The position numbers and the translations under genes were made by a program. The notes below the pieces were generated by a model. The model saw nothing but the letters and a program-made list of their open reading frames with translations, searched no databases and was not told where the DNA came from. From Halopenitus persicus (GTDB lineage: Archaea > Halobacteriota > Halobacteria > Halobacteriales > Haloferacaceae), in assembly GCF_002355635.1 (NCBI RefSeq), contig NZ_AP017558.1:1860001-1924000 (forward strand): DNA of 64,000 nt, in the 5' to 3' direction. Of the stretch, positions 4,653 to 32,744 are shown in pieces (position 1 is the stretch's first letter; every line of letters begins with the position of its first letter).

Positions 4653-4814
4653 TTAGATCGTCAGCGAGACGATCTGGACGAGGACGCCGAACAGAACCGC
4701 GAAGGCGATCACGGTTTTCGGGTCGATCCTGATCGCGTCCCGGCCCTCGGAGTCGAAATACCGGACCAGTCCCGCGCTGGACATCAGCCCGCCGGAGTTC
4801 TGACCGCTGCTCAT
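4653..4814 (-). CDS. secG: Preprotein translocase subunit Sec61-beta
   Basis: A 53-aa tail-anchored subunit of the SecYE-beta protein-conducting channel. The N-terminus MSSGQNSGGLMSSAGLVRYF is the standard archaeal Sec61-beta start: a flexible Gly/Ser segment, then the AGLVRYFD motif. It is followed by one membrane helix (about residues 34-53, VIAFAVLFGVLVQIVSLTI), so the C-terminus faces outside. The small size is normal. The gene lies alone between pdxT and the divergent thioredoxin gene. Confidence 0.93.
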   Translation of the reverse strand: MSSGQNSGGLMSSAGLVRYFDSEGRDAIRIDPKTVIAFAVLFGVLVQIVSLTI

Positions 4815-4951
4815 ACCCGACCTCGGACTGCCACTCGCGTAAACGTTTCGACACGGGTCGAACCGGTTCGTTCCGAGATGGGTCGGCCGTCCATGCCGTG
4901 CCGCGTGAGTAACCCTTATGCACGCTCCGCCGTTACTATCGATAGCACAGT

Positions 4952-5227
4952 ATGACCGTTCGACTTCTCGATTTCCACGCTGACTGGTGCGGCCCGTGTA
5001 AGACCCAGGACCCGATCCTCGAAGAACTGCAGGAGGAGCTGGGGGACGCCTTCGAGCTGCAGAAGATCGACGTCGACGAGCAGCAGGACGTCGCCAACCA
5101 GTACCAGGTCCGGTCGCTGCCCACGCTCATCGTCGAGTCCGACGACGGCGTCGTCGACCGGTTCGTTGGGGTCACCCAGAAGGAGGACCTCGAGGACGCC
5201 ATCTCGCAGGCGGCCGCGGCCGCGTAA
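4952..5227 (+). CDS. trxA: Thioredoxin-like protein
   Basis: A 91-aa cytosolic thioredoxin-fold protein with the canonical redox site Trp12-Cys13-Gly-Pro-Cys16 and the cis-proline loop RSLPTL at about residues 51-56. The fold is slightly short at the C-terminus compared with E. coli thioredoxin (about 108 aa), which is common in archaeal single-domain thioredoxins. It probably acts as a dithiol reductase with a thioredoxin reductase encoded elsewhere. The stop codon lies inside a 53-bp tandem duplication. Confidence 0.93.
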   Translation: MTVRLLDFHADWCGPCKTQDPILEELQEELGDAFELQKIDVDEQQDVANQYQVRSLPTLIVESDDGVVDRFVGVTQKEDLEDAISQAAAAA

Positions 5228-5639: not shown

Positions 5640-6263
5640 TTACTCGGGGTATTTCGGCTCCCGCCGCTCCGCCCGGTCGAGCGCGCGCTCGATCACGGCA
5701 CGAACGGACTCGTCGCCCTCGCCCGCCCGGTAGACGTCGCCGTGTCCGGCGTACAGCTCGGAGACGGCGTCCGGCAGCCGGTCGAGAAGGTCCTGGAGGC
5801 TCTCGATCAGCCGTTCACGTGACTGACCCGTCATGTCGGTGCGCCCGAAGGAGCCGTCCTCGAAGGCGCCGTCGTTGTAGACGACGACGTCGCCGCTGTA
5901 GAGCCGGTCGGGCCCGACGAACGCGACGTGGTCGACGGCGTGACCCGGCGTGTACACCACCTCGCACCGTTCGTCGCCGATCGTGACCACGTCGCCGTCC
6001 TCGAGCGCGACGTCCCGGCGTGGATGGTCGCCGTGGGCGTACAGGTCGGCGTCGAAGGCGTCGAGGACGGCGTCCAGCTCGCCGATGTGGTCGGCGTGTT
6101 GATGCGTGAGCACGACCCGGTCCAGGCCGTCGACGTGGTCGGCGATGACGTCCTCGACGCCGGGCATCGTGCCGGCGTCGACCAGCGTCGTCGTCGATCC
6201 GGGCACCAGATAGGCGTTACAGGTGAACGTCTCCGCGTCCGCCGTGACGGTGATCGGCTCCAT
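5640..6263 (-). CDS. MBL-fold metallo-hydrolase
   Basis: A 207-aa metallo-beta-lactamase-fold hydrolase. The metal-binding motif T-H54-Q-H56-A-D58-H59 is intact, and a further ligand lies in the TPGHAVDHVAF segment (about residues 115-125). A later Asp is in YSGDVVVYNDG. The sequence resembles the glyoxalase II-like branch, which hydrolyses thioesters, but the substrate cannot be named. The start was set at 6263 (MEPITVTADAE), because the eight residues from the upstream ATG look like read-through of leader. The gene is divergent from ppc. Confidence 0.85.
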   Translation of the reverse strand: MEPITVTADAETFTCNAYLVPGSTTTLVDAGTMPGVEDVIADHVDGLDRVVLTHQHADHIGELDAVLDAFDADLYAHGDHPRRDVALEDGDVVTIGDERCEVVYTPGHAVDHVAFVGPDRLYSGDVVVYNDGAFEDGSFGRTDMTGQSRERLIESLQDLLDRLPDAVSELYAGHGDVYRAGEGDESVRAVIERALDRAERREPKYPE

Positions 6264-25538: not shown

Positions 25539-28500
25539 TCACTCCGCTTCGGTTGTCGTTCCGGCCGATGTTTCGGTTGTCGTTTCGGCCGACGTTTCGG
25601 CTGCGGACCCGCCTGATGCCTCGGCCGAGGATCCGGCTGACGCCTCCGCTTCCGCCGTCTCGGTCTCGGCGATCCGTTTCTCCGCGATAACCTCGTGCTC
25701 GCGGAACAGCACGAACGCGCGGTGGGGATCCTGGCCCACCTCGACCGTGGTCGAATCGCCCTCGTCGACCGACCCGGTCGCCTCGTCGCCGCCCCACGGT
25801 TCGGGTCGGCCCGGGTCCGGCGTGACGACGACCGAGAGGTGCTCGGCGGCGATCGCCCCGCCGCCGTCGTGGGTCACGGTGACAGACCCGTCCGCGGCGT
25901 CGTGGTCGACCGCGAAGTCGGCCGTCGGCGCGATCACGTGGCTGCCGGTCTCGATCGGTTCCGCCGGCGGCGTCCACTCCGCGGCGAACGTCGTTCCCGG
26001 GTCGAACTCGCCCAGCGGGATGACGTCCCCGCGTTCGAGCACGTCGTGTTCGTCCGCCGGCTGCGTCTCGGCCGGCTCGCCGTCGACGAGCAGCCGGAAC
26101 TCCGCGGCGTCGCGGTTCACCGGGTCGCGGTAGACCGCCACGATGCCGTCGTCGGGACGAGCCTCCGTCCGGTCGGTTCCTCCTCGATCGGTCGCCGTTC
26201 CGGCCTCCCGCTCCGAGCCGGGCTGGAACGTGAATCCGTGACGGGGCTCGGTCGGGTAGTGGCCGACCGACCGTTCGCTCACCATATTGACCGTCTCGGT
26301 TCGAATGCTTGCAGTCACGCGGTCGCCGATCGCGACGTCCGTGAGGGTGATCGCGTCCCCGGTCGTCAGCTCGTCGTACTCCTCGGCCACCGTGAGGGTT
26401 TCACGCTCCTCGTTGTTCGGACGACTGCGATCGCCGTCGCTCGAATCGTCCGCCGGCGAGTAGGTCGTGACCCGCAGCCCCTCGGGATCGGCCGTCCGTG
26501 CCCCGACGTAGGTCAGCCGCATCTCCGCCGCGGCGGGGTCGTAGTGCGCCTCGAGCGCCTCGTGTGCGGTCGTGGTTCCGGCGAGGTGATGTTCCCGTTC
26601 GTCGTCCCTCTCGCCCTCCGCGCCGTCGTTCGTCCCGCTCTCCGCGTCGTCGTCCGCGCCGACCCAGACGACCTCGACCCGGGCGAACGGCGGGACCTCG
26701 GCGGTCAGTACGTCGCCGGGGCCGAACTCGTCGTGCTCGTCGGCCGGTTGCGTCTCGAGGGGCTCCTCATCGGCCCGCAGTTTGACCCGGTCGGCCGCCA
26801 TCGCGTCGCCCTCCCGGTGCTCGACCCGGACCGTCCCCGTCTCGGGGTCGTACTCGAGGTCGACGAACGCCTCCGGGACCACCTCGTGTTCGGCCACGAC
26901 GACCGGCTCCCCGGGGTCGAGCCACTCGATCGTGATGGTGCTGTCGACCGGATGGTTCCCGAGCGGGATCTCGACTCCTCGGGAGAGCGCCTCGACCTCG
27001 TCGGCGATCTGTCGGTCCGCCGGCTCGCCGTCGACGAGCACGCGGAACGCCGATGCCTCGTACTCCTCCTCGCCGTGATAGGTCGCGATGAGCCCTCGAT
27101 CTGGATGGTCATGGACGTGGATCCGGGGCGGCGAGACGCGGAACCGCTGCAGCGGACGTCGGTGAACGCCCGGAATCGACGGGACGGTCAGGGTCAGGGA
27201 GACGACGTCGCCCATCCCGACGTCCTCGATCGTGACCGCGTCCCCGTTCGTGAGCGTTTCGTCCCCCTCCTCGGGACGGTCGTCGCCGCCATCCCCGAAC
27301 GACGGGGCGGGCGTTCGGACCGTTCCGTCGTCCGCGCGGTGCGTCACCGAAACCTTCCCGGCGTTCGCCTCGCGGTCGCCGACGTACGTGACCGTGATCG
27401 TCTCCGTCTCGACGTCGTGGTCGATCGCGAACGCCTCGGAGCCGATCGCCTCGTTCGCGTACACGCGGTGCGCGTTTCGTTCCGCGTCGAACCAGCGGAG
27501 CACGACGCTCGCGAGGGGATCGGTCTCGACGGTCAGCATGTCGCCCGGTTCGAACCGGTCCAGCCGGTCGGCCGGCTGGCGGTCGGCGAGCTCGCCGTCG
27601 ACCCACAGCTGGAGCGCCTCGAGGTCCCCGCCCGCGACCGCCTCGCCGCCGCGGTGCTCGAGGGCGACGCCGCCCGTCTCCCGGCCACCCCCCGTCCCGT
27701 CAGCTTCCCCGTCGACCGTGGTCCCGATCCGAATGTCGGGCGCGTTCTCGTGGTCGTGCTCCGGTGGCGCCTCGAGAACCGCGTCCACCCGGATCGTCCT
27801 GCCGGACCGATCGATCGTCGCCTCCTCGACGATCCCCGTTCCGATCGCCTCGATCAGGGAGCGAACCGCCCGGTCGCCGGGCGTGCTCGGATCGTCGGTG
27901 AAAAGCAGGTAGCGGTTCTCGGCGCGCTCCTCCGAGCCGTGGAGTCGCGCCGGATGGATATCGAAGCCGCCGGCGAACGCACGGATCGCTCCGGTTCCGA
28001 CCGCGGGCGCGCTCGCGGTTCGAAAGCCGGACTCCGCGGTGTCGGGCGCGAACAGGACGGTGTCGAACGACGCGACCAGCCCGAACGCCGCCTCGGCGTC
28101 CGCGTTGGCGTCGACGAGCCGGTCGATTCCCTCCTCGCCCGCGGCCGCCGCCGCGATCGCCCGCGCCGTCTCGACGCGACCGGATCGGTCCTCGCCCGCG
28201 ACGAACGCCGCGACGCCGTCGGTGCTCACGGTCGTCGTTCCCTCGCGGTCCCCGTCGTCGGCGATCCGCCAGTCGCCGACGGTCGCCACCTCCTCGCCGC
28301 GGTCGAGCCGGTCGAGGGTGCCGGCGGCAATCGTGATTCGGTTCCGATGGTCGTGGGTGATCGCCGTGACGACCGTCGAGAGGTCGGCGGCCGCGACGTC
28401 GAGTTCCCGCGTCACGATGCGGGCCTCGTGTGGCGGGTCCTCGGTCGCGTCCGCATCTGCCACGTTCGTCGCCACCACCAGCCGATACGAGACGTCGAGG

Positions 28501-28679
28501 GAATCATCGTCGGGCAGCGCCGCGAGCGCGCTCGCGACCGGATCGGACAGCTCGTCGAGGCTCCGCCGGTCGGTTGGCGTCGGCGAGCCGGCCACGCGGT
28601 CAGGGTCGAGCGTTCCCGTGAGTGCGGCCAGCGTGAGGGCGCTTCCGCCGAGGAAGCCTCGTCTGGAGGGAGTCACCAT
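25539..28679 (-). CDS. Large Tat-exported repeat protein
   Basis: A 1,046-aa exported protein. The N-terminus MVTPSRRGFLGGSALTLAAL is a Tat signal: twin Arg in SRRGFL, then a hydrophobic core and an Ala/Gly-type cleavage region. Residues about 45-320 form one domain with no known motif. From about 330 on, a module recurs at least four times in which the phrase LxxDGEPAxxQPADExDxxxxGDxI is followed by a beta-rich stretch ending in an ExW or VxW element. Between modules lie sections like VTVTYVGDREANAGKVSVTH. The tail is rich in Glu, Ala, Ser and Thr and has no membrane helix, so the protein is probably soluble outside or held by partners. Function unknown; an adhesin- or matrix-like role is inference. 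Confidence 0.85.
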   Translation of the reverse strand: MVTPSRRGFLGGSALTLAALTGTLDPDRVAGSPTPTDRRSLDELSDPVASALAALPDDDSLDVSYRLVVATNVADADATEDPPHEARIVTRELDVAAADLSTVVTAITHDHRNRITIAAGTLDRLDRGEEVATVGDWRIADDGDREGTTTVSTDGVAAFVAGEDRSGRVETARAIAAAAAGEEGIDRLVDANADAEAAFGLVASFDTVLFAPDTAESGFRTASAPAVGTGAIRAFAGGFDIHPARLHGSEERAENRYLLFTDDPSTPGDRAVRSLIEAIGTGIVEEATIDRSGRTIRVDAVLEAPPEHDHENAPDIRIGTTVDGEADGTGGGRETGGVALEHRGGEAVAGGDLEALQLWVDGELADRQPADRLDRFEPGDMLTVETDPLASVVLRWFDAERNAHRVYANEAIGSEAFAIDHDVETETITVTYVGDREANAGKVSVTHRADDGTVRTPAPSFGDGGDDRPEEGDETLTNGDAVTIEDVGMGDVVSLTLTVPSIPGVHRRPLQRFRVSPPRIHVHDHPDRGLIATYHGEEEYEASAFRVLVDGEPADRQIADEVEALSRGVEIPLGNHPVDSTITIEWLDPGEPVVVAEHEVVPEAFVDLEYDPETGTVRVEHREGDAMAADRVKLRADEEPLETQPADEHDEFGPGDVLTAEVPPFARVEVVWVGADDDAESGTNDGAEGERDDEREHHLAGTTTAHEALEAHYDPAAAEMRLTYVGARTADPEGLRVTTYSPADDSSDGDRSRPNNEERETLTVAEEYDELTTGDAITLTDVAIGDRVTASIRTETVNMVSERSVGHYPTEPRHGFTFQPGSEREAGTATDRGGTDRTEARPDDGIVAVYRDPVNRDAAEFRLLVDGEPAETQPADEHDVLERGDVIPLGEFDPGTTFAAEWTPPAEPIETGSHVIAPTADFAVDHDAADGSVTVTHDGGGAIAAEHLSVVVTPDPGRPEPWGGDEATGSVDEGDSTTVEVGQDPHRAFVLFREHEVIAEKRIAETETAEAEASAGSSAEASGGSAAETSAETTTETSAGTTTEAE

Positions 28680-28702
28680 ACGCGGACTCACACGGGTTCA
28701 TC

Positions 28703-28746: not shown

Positions 28747-28760
28747 TTAGGCCAACCTAA
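28747..28760. promoter_or_regulatory. DtxR/Idr-type operator 1 (TTAGG-N4-CCTAA)
   Basis: TTAGGCCAACCTAA is a perfect 5-bp-arm palindrome of the type bound by DtxR-family iron regulators, including the haloarchaeal Idr/SirR proteins. It lies just before the TATA-like ACTATTTACC (28762-28771) of the plus-strand unit, 36-49 bp before the start codon. Confidence 0.65.
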
Positions 28761-28781
28761 AACTATTTACCACGCCGTGTT

Positions 28782-28795
28782 TTAGGACGGCCTAA
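28782..28795. promoter_or_regulatory. DtxR/Idr-type operator 2 (TTAGG-N4-CCTAA)
   Basis: TTAGGACGGCCTAA ends one base before the ATG at 28796. With operator 1 (centre to centre 35 bp) it brackets the TATA box and the likely transcription start, an arrangement that would let a repressor shut the promoter from both sides. Confidence 0.65.
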
Positions 28796-29191
28796 ATGAT
28801 TGCCGAGACGCTCGCCGACATCCGCCGGCGGATCGAATCGCTCGCCAGCGACGACGGTCGATACTACCTCGCCTGCGCTCGAACCGGCGATCGGCCGACG
28901 CCCGTCGCGGGACTCGCCTTCGAGAGCCGTGAGACGGCGGCTCGAGCAGCTCGGGCGTGTCAGCGATACCGGGAATCGCTCCGGCAGTACGACGAGTCGG
29001 TCCCGTACCGGGACCTCGTCGTCCACGAACGCCACGCCGCGGTCCCCGCTGATTCCGGATCCGACGCACGCGATGCCGGCACAGCCGATTCCGATGCGAC
29101 CGATGTCGCCGCAACTGATGCCGGTGTCCACGATTCCGACGCAATCGATCCCGACGCAACCGATACCGGCACGGCCGGTGATCGGCGATGA
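28796..29191 (+). CDS. DUF7552-like protein, first gene of an iron-operator unit
   Basis: A 131-aa haloarchaeal protein of unknown function. The first 80 residues form a small domain: MIAETLADIRRRIESLASDD, then YYLACARTGDRPTPVAGLAF and an Arg-rich helix RETAARAARACQRYRESLRQYD, ending VPYRDLVVHER. Residues 85-131 are a low-complexity Asp/Ala/Thr/Ser tail made by short degenerate DNA repeats. I recall similar haloarchaeal proteins as DUF7552. The gene starts right at operator 2, with a TATA box bracketed by two iron-type operators, so its expression probably rises when iron is low. Its stop overlaps the next start (ATGA). Confidence 0.75.
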   Translation: MIAETLADIRRRIESLASDDGRYYLACARTGDRPTPVAGLAFESRETAARAARACQRYRESLRQYDESVPYRDLVVHERHAAVPADSGSDARDAGTADSDATDVAATDAGVHDSDAIDPDATDTGTAGDRR

Positions 29192-30036
29192 GCGTCGAGA
29201 CGGCGGTTCACGTGGCGTTCGACCGCGTCGACGCCGAGACCGACCGCGTCGACTCGTTGAAACCTGCCTTCGGCCGGTTCGACGCGCGGGTCCGCGATCT
29301 CGAACCGGTCGGCGGTCGGTCGTCCTCGTCAACGGGGCCGACGCGGCTGGCCGACGGCGGGATCGCCGCGGCGCATCACCATAGTCGTCAGTCGGGTAGC
29401 CCCGGAACGGCCGACGATGCCGCGGGATCGGATCGCCGAATCAGAACGATTCGCAACGCGTTCGCGAGGACGGTACTGTCGGCCCGCGGTGAGGGGACCG
29501 ACGCGTCCGCCGTGGCGGTCGTCCGGGCGATCCGCTCGGAGTTCGGAGACGAGATCGCGGTCGCCCTCGCGCCCGGCACTGACGCCCGGTTCACTCCCGC
29601 CGTCAAGCGTGCCGTTCGGTCGGCCATCGCCACGCGGCGTGCGGAGCTTCACGCGTTCCGTGACGCCCTCGATCGGGAACGTGAGTCGCTTCGATCGGCG
29701 CGGACGGACGTCGACGCGGTCGTCTCCTGGATCGCCAGTGCGGACGAGACGCCGCTGTCCGGGCTCGGGTTCGAGGCGCTCCGGGACCGTCACGAGACCC
29801 TCGAACGTCACCGCGAACGCTGTGCGGAGCGTCTCGAAGCGCGGCAGGCGACGCTCGGGTCCGCGACCGGCCACGGCGCCGAGGCCGGTCTCACGCATCG
29901 ATCGCTCGTCTCCCATCTCTACGCTGTCGATGGCTTCTCGACGCCGTACCCGGTCATCTCGACCGTCGTCCGGCTGATCGACTGCTGTGAGTCGTGCCAG
30001 CGCTCGGTTCGTGACCACCTCACGCGGAGGGTCTGA
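29188..30036 (+). CDS. DUF7260-like protein, second gene of the iron-operator unit
   Basis: A 282-aa protein translated from an ATGA overlap with the upstream gene, so the two are coupled. The sequence is helical and looks like a coiled coil in places (RAELHAFRDALDRERESLRSARTDVDAVVSWI; HETLERHRERCAERLEARQ in shorter blocks). Near the C-terminus a CC pair and another Cys occur in LIDCCESCQRSVRDHL, a possible metal or redox site. No signal peptide or membrane segment. It resembles haloarchaeal DUF7260 from memory. Under the twin iron-type operators it may serve in iron handling, but nothing in the protein proves this. Confidence 0.75.
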   Translation: MSVETAVHVAFDRVDAETDRVDSLKPAFGRFDARVRDLEPVGGRSSSSTGPTRLADGGIAAAHHHSRQSGSPGTADDAAGSDRRIRTIRNAFARTVLSARGEGTDASAVAVVRAIRSEFGDEIAVALAPGTDARFTPAVKRAVRSAIATRRAELHAFRDALDRERESLRSARTDVDAVVSWIASADETPLSGLGFEALRDRHETLERHRERCAERLEARQATLGSATGHGAEAGLTHRSLVSHLYAVDGFSTPYPVISTVVRLIDCCESCQRSVRDHLTRRV

Positions 30037-30092
30037 CCGCACGGCGGATCCACGGGTCTCAACCGGCCCAGCGGCAGTTTGCAGGACCGGTC

Positions 30093-30125
30093 GTTAGCGG
30101 AACCGGCCGTTAGCGGAACCGGCCG

Positions 30126-30140
<15 letters not shown>
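30093..30140. repeat. 16-bp tandem repeat over the copA stop codon
   Basis: GTTAGCGGAACCGGCC occurs three times head to tail at 30093, 30109 and 30125. The copy nearest copA contains its stop (TTA on the plus strand at 30126-30128) and last codons. Confidence 0.9.

Positions 30141-32744
<2,604 letters not shown>

Follow-up and report, generated by a model that had tools for sequence, protein, structure and literature searches.

The gene pair between positions 28796 and 30036 of the window (the whole stretch of DNA analyzed, 64 kb from a 3.1-Mb haloarchaeal genome, that of a Halopenitus) probably forms an iron-responsive operon of a DtxR-type regulon, which would be silenced by a metal-loaded repressor and switched on in iron shortage, and whose two products would be cytosolic proteins that handle iron; we put the probability of this reading at about 70%. 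Control of the operon by a metal regulon is strongly supported by the sequence comparisons described below.

Two exact copies of the palindrome TTAGG-N4-CCTAA precede the genes at a spacing of 35 bp. Operator 1 (TTAGGCCAACCTAA, 28747-28760) is directly 5' of a TATA-like element that is predicted in the AACTATTTA region (28759-28769, plus strand) between the operators, and operator 2 (TTAGGACGGCCTAA, 28782-28795) covers the expected transcription start, its end directly preceding the ATG of gene 1 at 28796. The sequence-only reading had described this arrangement of paired sites, TATA-like element, and start codon, and its coordinates and description are correct. The rest of the 64-kb window has no further exact copy, and not one arose when the window was shuffled 100 times with dinucleotides preserved. 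Both operators recur at the corresponding positions in two further Halopenitus genomes, and at operator 1 the N4 has changed there while all ten specified bases are conserved; the placement of operator 2 is also shared by eight of the loci compared (L088, L089, L156, L158, L167, L168, L172, and L174). A search for a sigma-70 promoter of the bacterial kind and for an intrinsic terminator found neither, and neither is expected in an archaeon. On the other side of operator 1, a divergent open reading frame for 1050 residues (25539-28691, minus strand), which has a Tat-like start (RRGFLGGSALTLAAL) and a weak match to the archaeal Pilin_N domain, starts ~70 bp away, so that the intergenic region is shared. 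Downstream, a 16-bp tandem repeat (30086-30140; ACCGGCCGTTAGCGGA, 3.4 copies) is found between gene 2 and a convergent gene for a copper-type P-ATPase (30126-32744, minus strand).

The DUF7552 and DUF7260 proteins

Gene 1 (28796-29191, plus strand) encodes a 131-residue DUF7552 protein (PF24422, E = 1.1e-33; 115.7 bits against a curated cut-off of 27), and gene 2 (29188-30036, plus strand), which overlaps it by ATGA, encodes a 282-residue DUF7260 protein (PF23921, E = 4.8e-63; 213.3 bits, also against 27). The earlier description of both as uncharacterized is accurate in that neither has an assigned function, but they do belong to named Pfam families. A literature search for DUF7552 or DUF7260, with published haloarchaeal DtxR-family target lists outside its scope, returned no paper naming either. 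The low-complexity acidic tail reported for gene 1 is indeed present and is encoded by a degenerate 15/30-bp repeat (29061-29172, plus strand; Tandem Repeats Finder); its length varies among Halopenitus species. The DUF7552 domain is present in 84 of the 119 genomes of the family-level set; the genome collection was searched separately with an alignment of nine DUF7552 sequences. In most other genomes the domain forms the N-terminal portion of a ~300-residue protein that ends in DUF7551 (PF24420); thus the protein encoded in the window is a stand-alone form in which the acidic tail replaces DUF7551.

The structure of the DUF7552-DUF7551 protein is predicted with confidence apart from the linker. 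The best fold matches of its DUF7551 part include several H-NOX domains (E 0.01-0.03), followed by sensors of the MopR/DmpR type, and all are weak (E 0.01-0.15). Membership of the H-NOX family was not accepted (best H-NOX E 0.012, TM 0.3-0.4), and a Pfam search with DUF7551 gave no match to H-NOX or V4R-type sensor domains. The H-NOX signature, a YxSxR-type motif and an equivalent proximal His, is not conserved, and the likeness of fold is therefore taken as a lead, from which a role of DUF7551 as a ligand or metal sensor is possible. In the long DUF7552 proteins, L026 and L107 among them, the DUF7551 region (residues ~113-303) has invariant cysteines at positions 122 and 163 and a near-invariant His123.

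The DUF7260 family is represented in 161 of 194 genomes of the class, frequently by multiple paralogues; in one of these (G000:C1:1629895-1630671) two overlapping profile stretches occur in one open frame, which suggests an internal insertion or repeat. The model of the gene 2 product is all-helical (pLDDT 88.4, pTM 0.82). A PDB fold search with it gave no convincing match, and weak fold matches to PhoU and spectrin, like profile matches to PDB entries for designed helical bundles, were rejected as reflecting coiled-coil composition.

Near its C terminus, the gene 2 product contains the sequence C267-x2-C270-x6-H277. A CCxxC motif had been pointed out here and is present as Cys266, Cys267, and Cys270, but Cys266 is not conserved, whereas the Cys267-Cys270 pair and His277 are. 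The full C-x2-C-x6-H motif is kept in 27 of 28 DUF7260 proteins from DUF7552 operons and in none of 22 encoded away from DUF7552; some short-form relatives in the family-level set are without the first Cys. The sole two of those 22 that keep part of the motif (C270 and H277), L202 and L209, are encoded by genes that are not beside DUF7552 and that are preceded by a double operator of the 36-bp form, and both group within the operator-linked clade. This clade is recovered in the tree, with low support at its root or deepest split, and gene 2 belongs to it as well as carrying the motif. Operator and Cys/His motif therefore go together in one DUF7260 subfamily, newly proposed here, and since the two mark a single clade, their association may reflect a single evolutionary event.

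Gene neighborhoods of DUF7552 in other haloarchaea

In a sample of 80 named DUF7552 loci from 37 genera, Fec-type ABC genes are found at 35 loci, a similar oxidoreductase at 21, and a DtxR-family gene, which was expected as a neighbor at most loci, at just 11; several species per genus are included and the loci are not fully independent, so that these counts, and those from the same sample below, indicate breadth rather than events. At 79 of the 80, at least one of three features is nearby: the operator, an iron transporter, or a DtxR gene. The annotation of Halobellus limi has an iron permease, an ATPase, two binding proteins, and an FAD-binding protein followed by the gene pair; in that of Haladaptatus halobius the gene pair comes first, with genes for a metal-dependent regulator and for an iron ABC system after it. 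In Halobacterium hubeiense the pair and an iron ABC cluster are divergently oriented. The two genes had been put forward as candidates for new iron-responsive functions, a suggestion that is strengthened by this linkage, elsewhere, of their families to genes for iron transport and for DtxR regulators. Small unnamed open reading frames occur right after DUF7260 or right before DUF7552 in several operons (6715-6870 in L197, 4838-4999 in L198, and 4726-4995 and 6719-6904 in L200) and are possible additional operon members.

In several genomes a DtxR-family gene is directly downstream, with a 4-bp overlap in L080, an arrangement that, like the weak sensor-domain matches of DUF7551, would suit a role of DUF7552/DUF7551 and DUF7260 as a sensor or co-regulator of the neighboring DtxR-family protein, the operator then being part of an autoregulatory loop. 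We regard this as rather unlikely, because DtxR genes are so much rarer than iron ABC genes near these loci, no DNA-binding domain is consistently detected in DUF7552, DUF7551, or DUF7260 proteins, and the form in the window is without DUF7551.

The operator motif in the genome and across the class

A genome search for the motif, one of the checks proposed with the sequence-only reading, gave 16 exact sites compared with one for the reversed pattern. The sites are at two DtxR-family genes, a Dps/ferritin gene, and two siderophore-type ABC clusters; further site-bearing genes encode an Fbp-type binding protein, an Fbp-type ATPase, an HTH_10 regulator, and a Rieske protein, for which both nearest sites have one mismatch each. 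Most of the sites follow a TATA-like element and are themselves followed, a few bases on at most, by the start codon. For two sites the nearby genes, among them glycosyltransferase genes and a small repeat open reading frame, have no evident connection with iron. The association of the motif with DtxR, Dps/ferritin, iron ABC, and Rieske genes indicates a native metal regulon. In L005 an exact operator (5686-5699) adjoins the ATG of a gene for an HTH_10 regulator (bacterio-opsin-activator-like), which is followed by a peroxiredoxin-like open reading frame, and may possibly link iron to another regulator. Two pairs of one-mismatch sites, G000:C1:170239/171026 and 1545884/1546671, are in mirrored order with an equal spacing of 787 bp, indicating an inverted duplicated segment.

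The identity of the metal bears on this reading. One motif region, with one mismatch, is flanked by a DtxR-family gene and a gene for a heavy-metal transporter (PF11449), which makes manganese or another metal possible, and the genome encodes four clear DtxR-family proteins. Both observations would be compatible with a metal-balance operon, rather than one for iron starvation, that responds to manganese or to several metals through an MntR/TroR-like reader. Such an operon is improbable, given that the motif-linked transporters, here and beside DUF7552 elsewhere, are mostly iron systems of the siderophore or Fbp type and that Dps/ferritin and the Rieske protein are within the motif set; iron is thus the more natural candidate for the metal in the proposed iron-responsive operon.

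The double-operator layout is stereotyped: of 36 close site pairs, 28 are spaced at 36 bp, five at 35, and two at 34 (35 of 36 within 34-36 bp). Pairs of the 36-bp form enclose an invariant, BRE-like CCG together with a TTTA/TTAT box, and the start is after site 2. The 35-bp form is that of the window and of Natrialbaceae such as Halobiforma and Natronolimnohabitans; here the TATA-like box, AACTATTTA/TTATAT, has a conserved position adjoining site 1 in the Halopenitus and Natrialbaceae loci, and site 2 adjoins the ATG. In both forms, two dimers 34-36 bp apart would enclose the archaeal TATA box and with it the core promoter, and repression is the natural, although inferred, interpretation. The Idr1 and Idr2 proteins of Halobacterium salinarum act in both directions, and the sites could by analogy activate, or activate and repress depending on iron; this seems improbable, since in the window and its closest matches site 2 is over the start and the ATG and site 1 adjoins the TATA element, a placement expected to block initiation.

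Conservation of the motif upstream of DUF7552 is broad. Summed over the 119 genomes of the family-level set there are 1356 exact sites and 131 reversed ones, and of 90 DUF7552 loci in this set, 42 are preceded by an exact site at a distance of no more than 500 bp. Among the 80 named loci this holds for 45, and for 73 when the upstream range is extended to 4 kb, with no reversed pattern in 306.8 kb; sites occur at a density of 1.75 per kb over the nearest 500 bp upstream, 0.19 farther upstream, 0.039 downstream, and ~0.003 genome-wide. The ~44% of these loci that are without a site within 500 bp mostly have one farther upstream, generally at the start of a longer gene series that encodes an iron-siderophore binding protein, an FAD/NAD(P) oxidoreductase, and the DUF7552-DUF7551 protein. 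That the palindromes are chance occurrences without function has a negligible probability, being contradicted by the shuffle, reversed-pattern, and cross-genus controls. The earlier proposal of DtxR-type operators is supported by every computational test tried, namely regulon context, upstream conservation, and gene linkage, and the sites are best described as putative operators of this type.

Proposed mechanism and relation to known systems

In the proposed iron-responsive operon, a DtxR-family protein carrying its metal, most likely Fe2+, would occupy both palindromes as long as that metal is in ample supply. One dimer would border the TATA/BRE region on its upstream side and the second would cover the transcription start and start codon, and assembly of TBP/TFB and RNA polymerase would thereby be blocked. 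When iron is short the repressor would leave and a DUF7552-DUF7260 mRNA, probably leaderless, would be made. Both products are predicted to be cytosolic partners of siderophore-type iron import, most likely in handling or releasing the imported iron, with the C-x2-C-x6-H motif of DUF7260 as a candidate metal site; one example of such a role would be that of a chaperone or reductase partner that frees siderophore iron together with the neighboring FAD oxidoreductase. The more specific proposal that DUF7260 proteins of the Cys/His clade and DUF7552(-DUF7551) proteins constitute an unrecognized haloarchaeal system for cytosolic iron handling, under a stereotyped double-operator promoter, is put forward tentatively and is less probable than the regulatory assignment.

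The regulons of actinobacterial DtxR and IdeR are similar in involving a family of metal-dependent repressors, TTAGG...CCTAA half-sites, and targets in siderophore uptake and iron metabolism genes. However, the known sites of Corynebacterium diphtheriae DtxR are 19 bp in length, for example TTAGGATAGCTTTACCTAA at tox (PMC524172), whereas those described here are 14-bp 5-4-5 palindromes with variable flanks, which do not conform to the actinobacterial 19-bp box, and they bracket an archaeal BRE/TATA promoter as two sites 34-36 bp apart. Further counterparts are the haloarchaeal iron regulators Idr1/Idr2, SirR, and TroR, studied in H. salinarum and represented in Haloferax volcanii by HVO_0538, HVO_0819, and HVO_0863 (PMC11349517); regulator family and host class are the same as for the present genome with its four DtxR-family proteins. 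Many of the proteins induced by iron starvation in Hfx. volcanii are uncharacterized, and FhuD-type binding proteins are among them (PMC11349517). The likeness to the present case is that of uncharacterized proteins in a response to iron shortage; Hfx. volcanii, a species with good genetics, matches both DUF7552 and DUF7260, and none of the loci in the published list was matched to these families (PMC11349517).

Pfam defines DUF7552 (PF24422), DUF7551 (PF24420), and DUF7260 (PF23921), the proteins of the window belonging to the first and third; the link of the three families to iron, as well as the Cys/His subfamily of DUF7260, is proposed here. What is understood of how haloarchaea use iron comes mainly from the regulators, and much less from the handling of imported siderophore iron inside the cell. 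The present comparisons would tie three class-wide families that are without an assigned function to an iron regulon by sequence evidence alone, and they name specific features that can be tested, namely Cys267, Cys270, and His277 of the DUF7260 protein and the grammar of the double-operator promoter.
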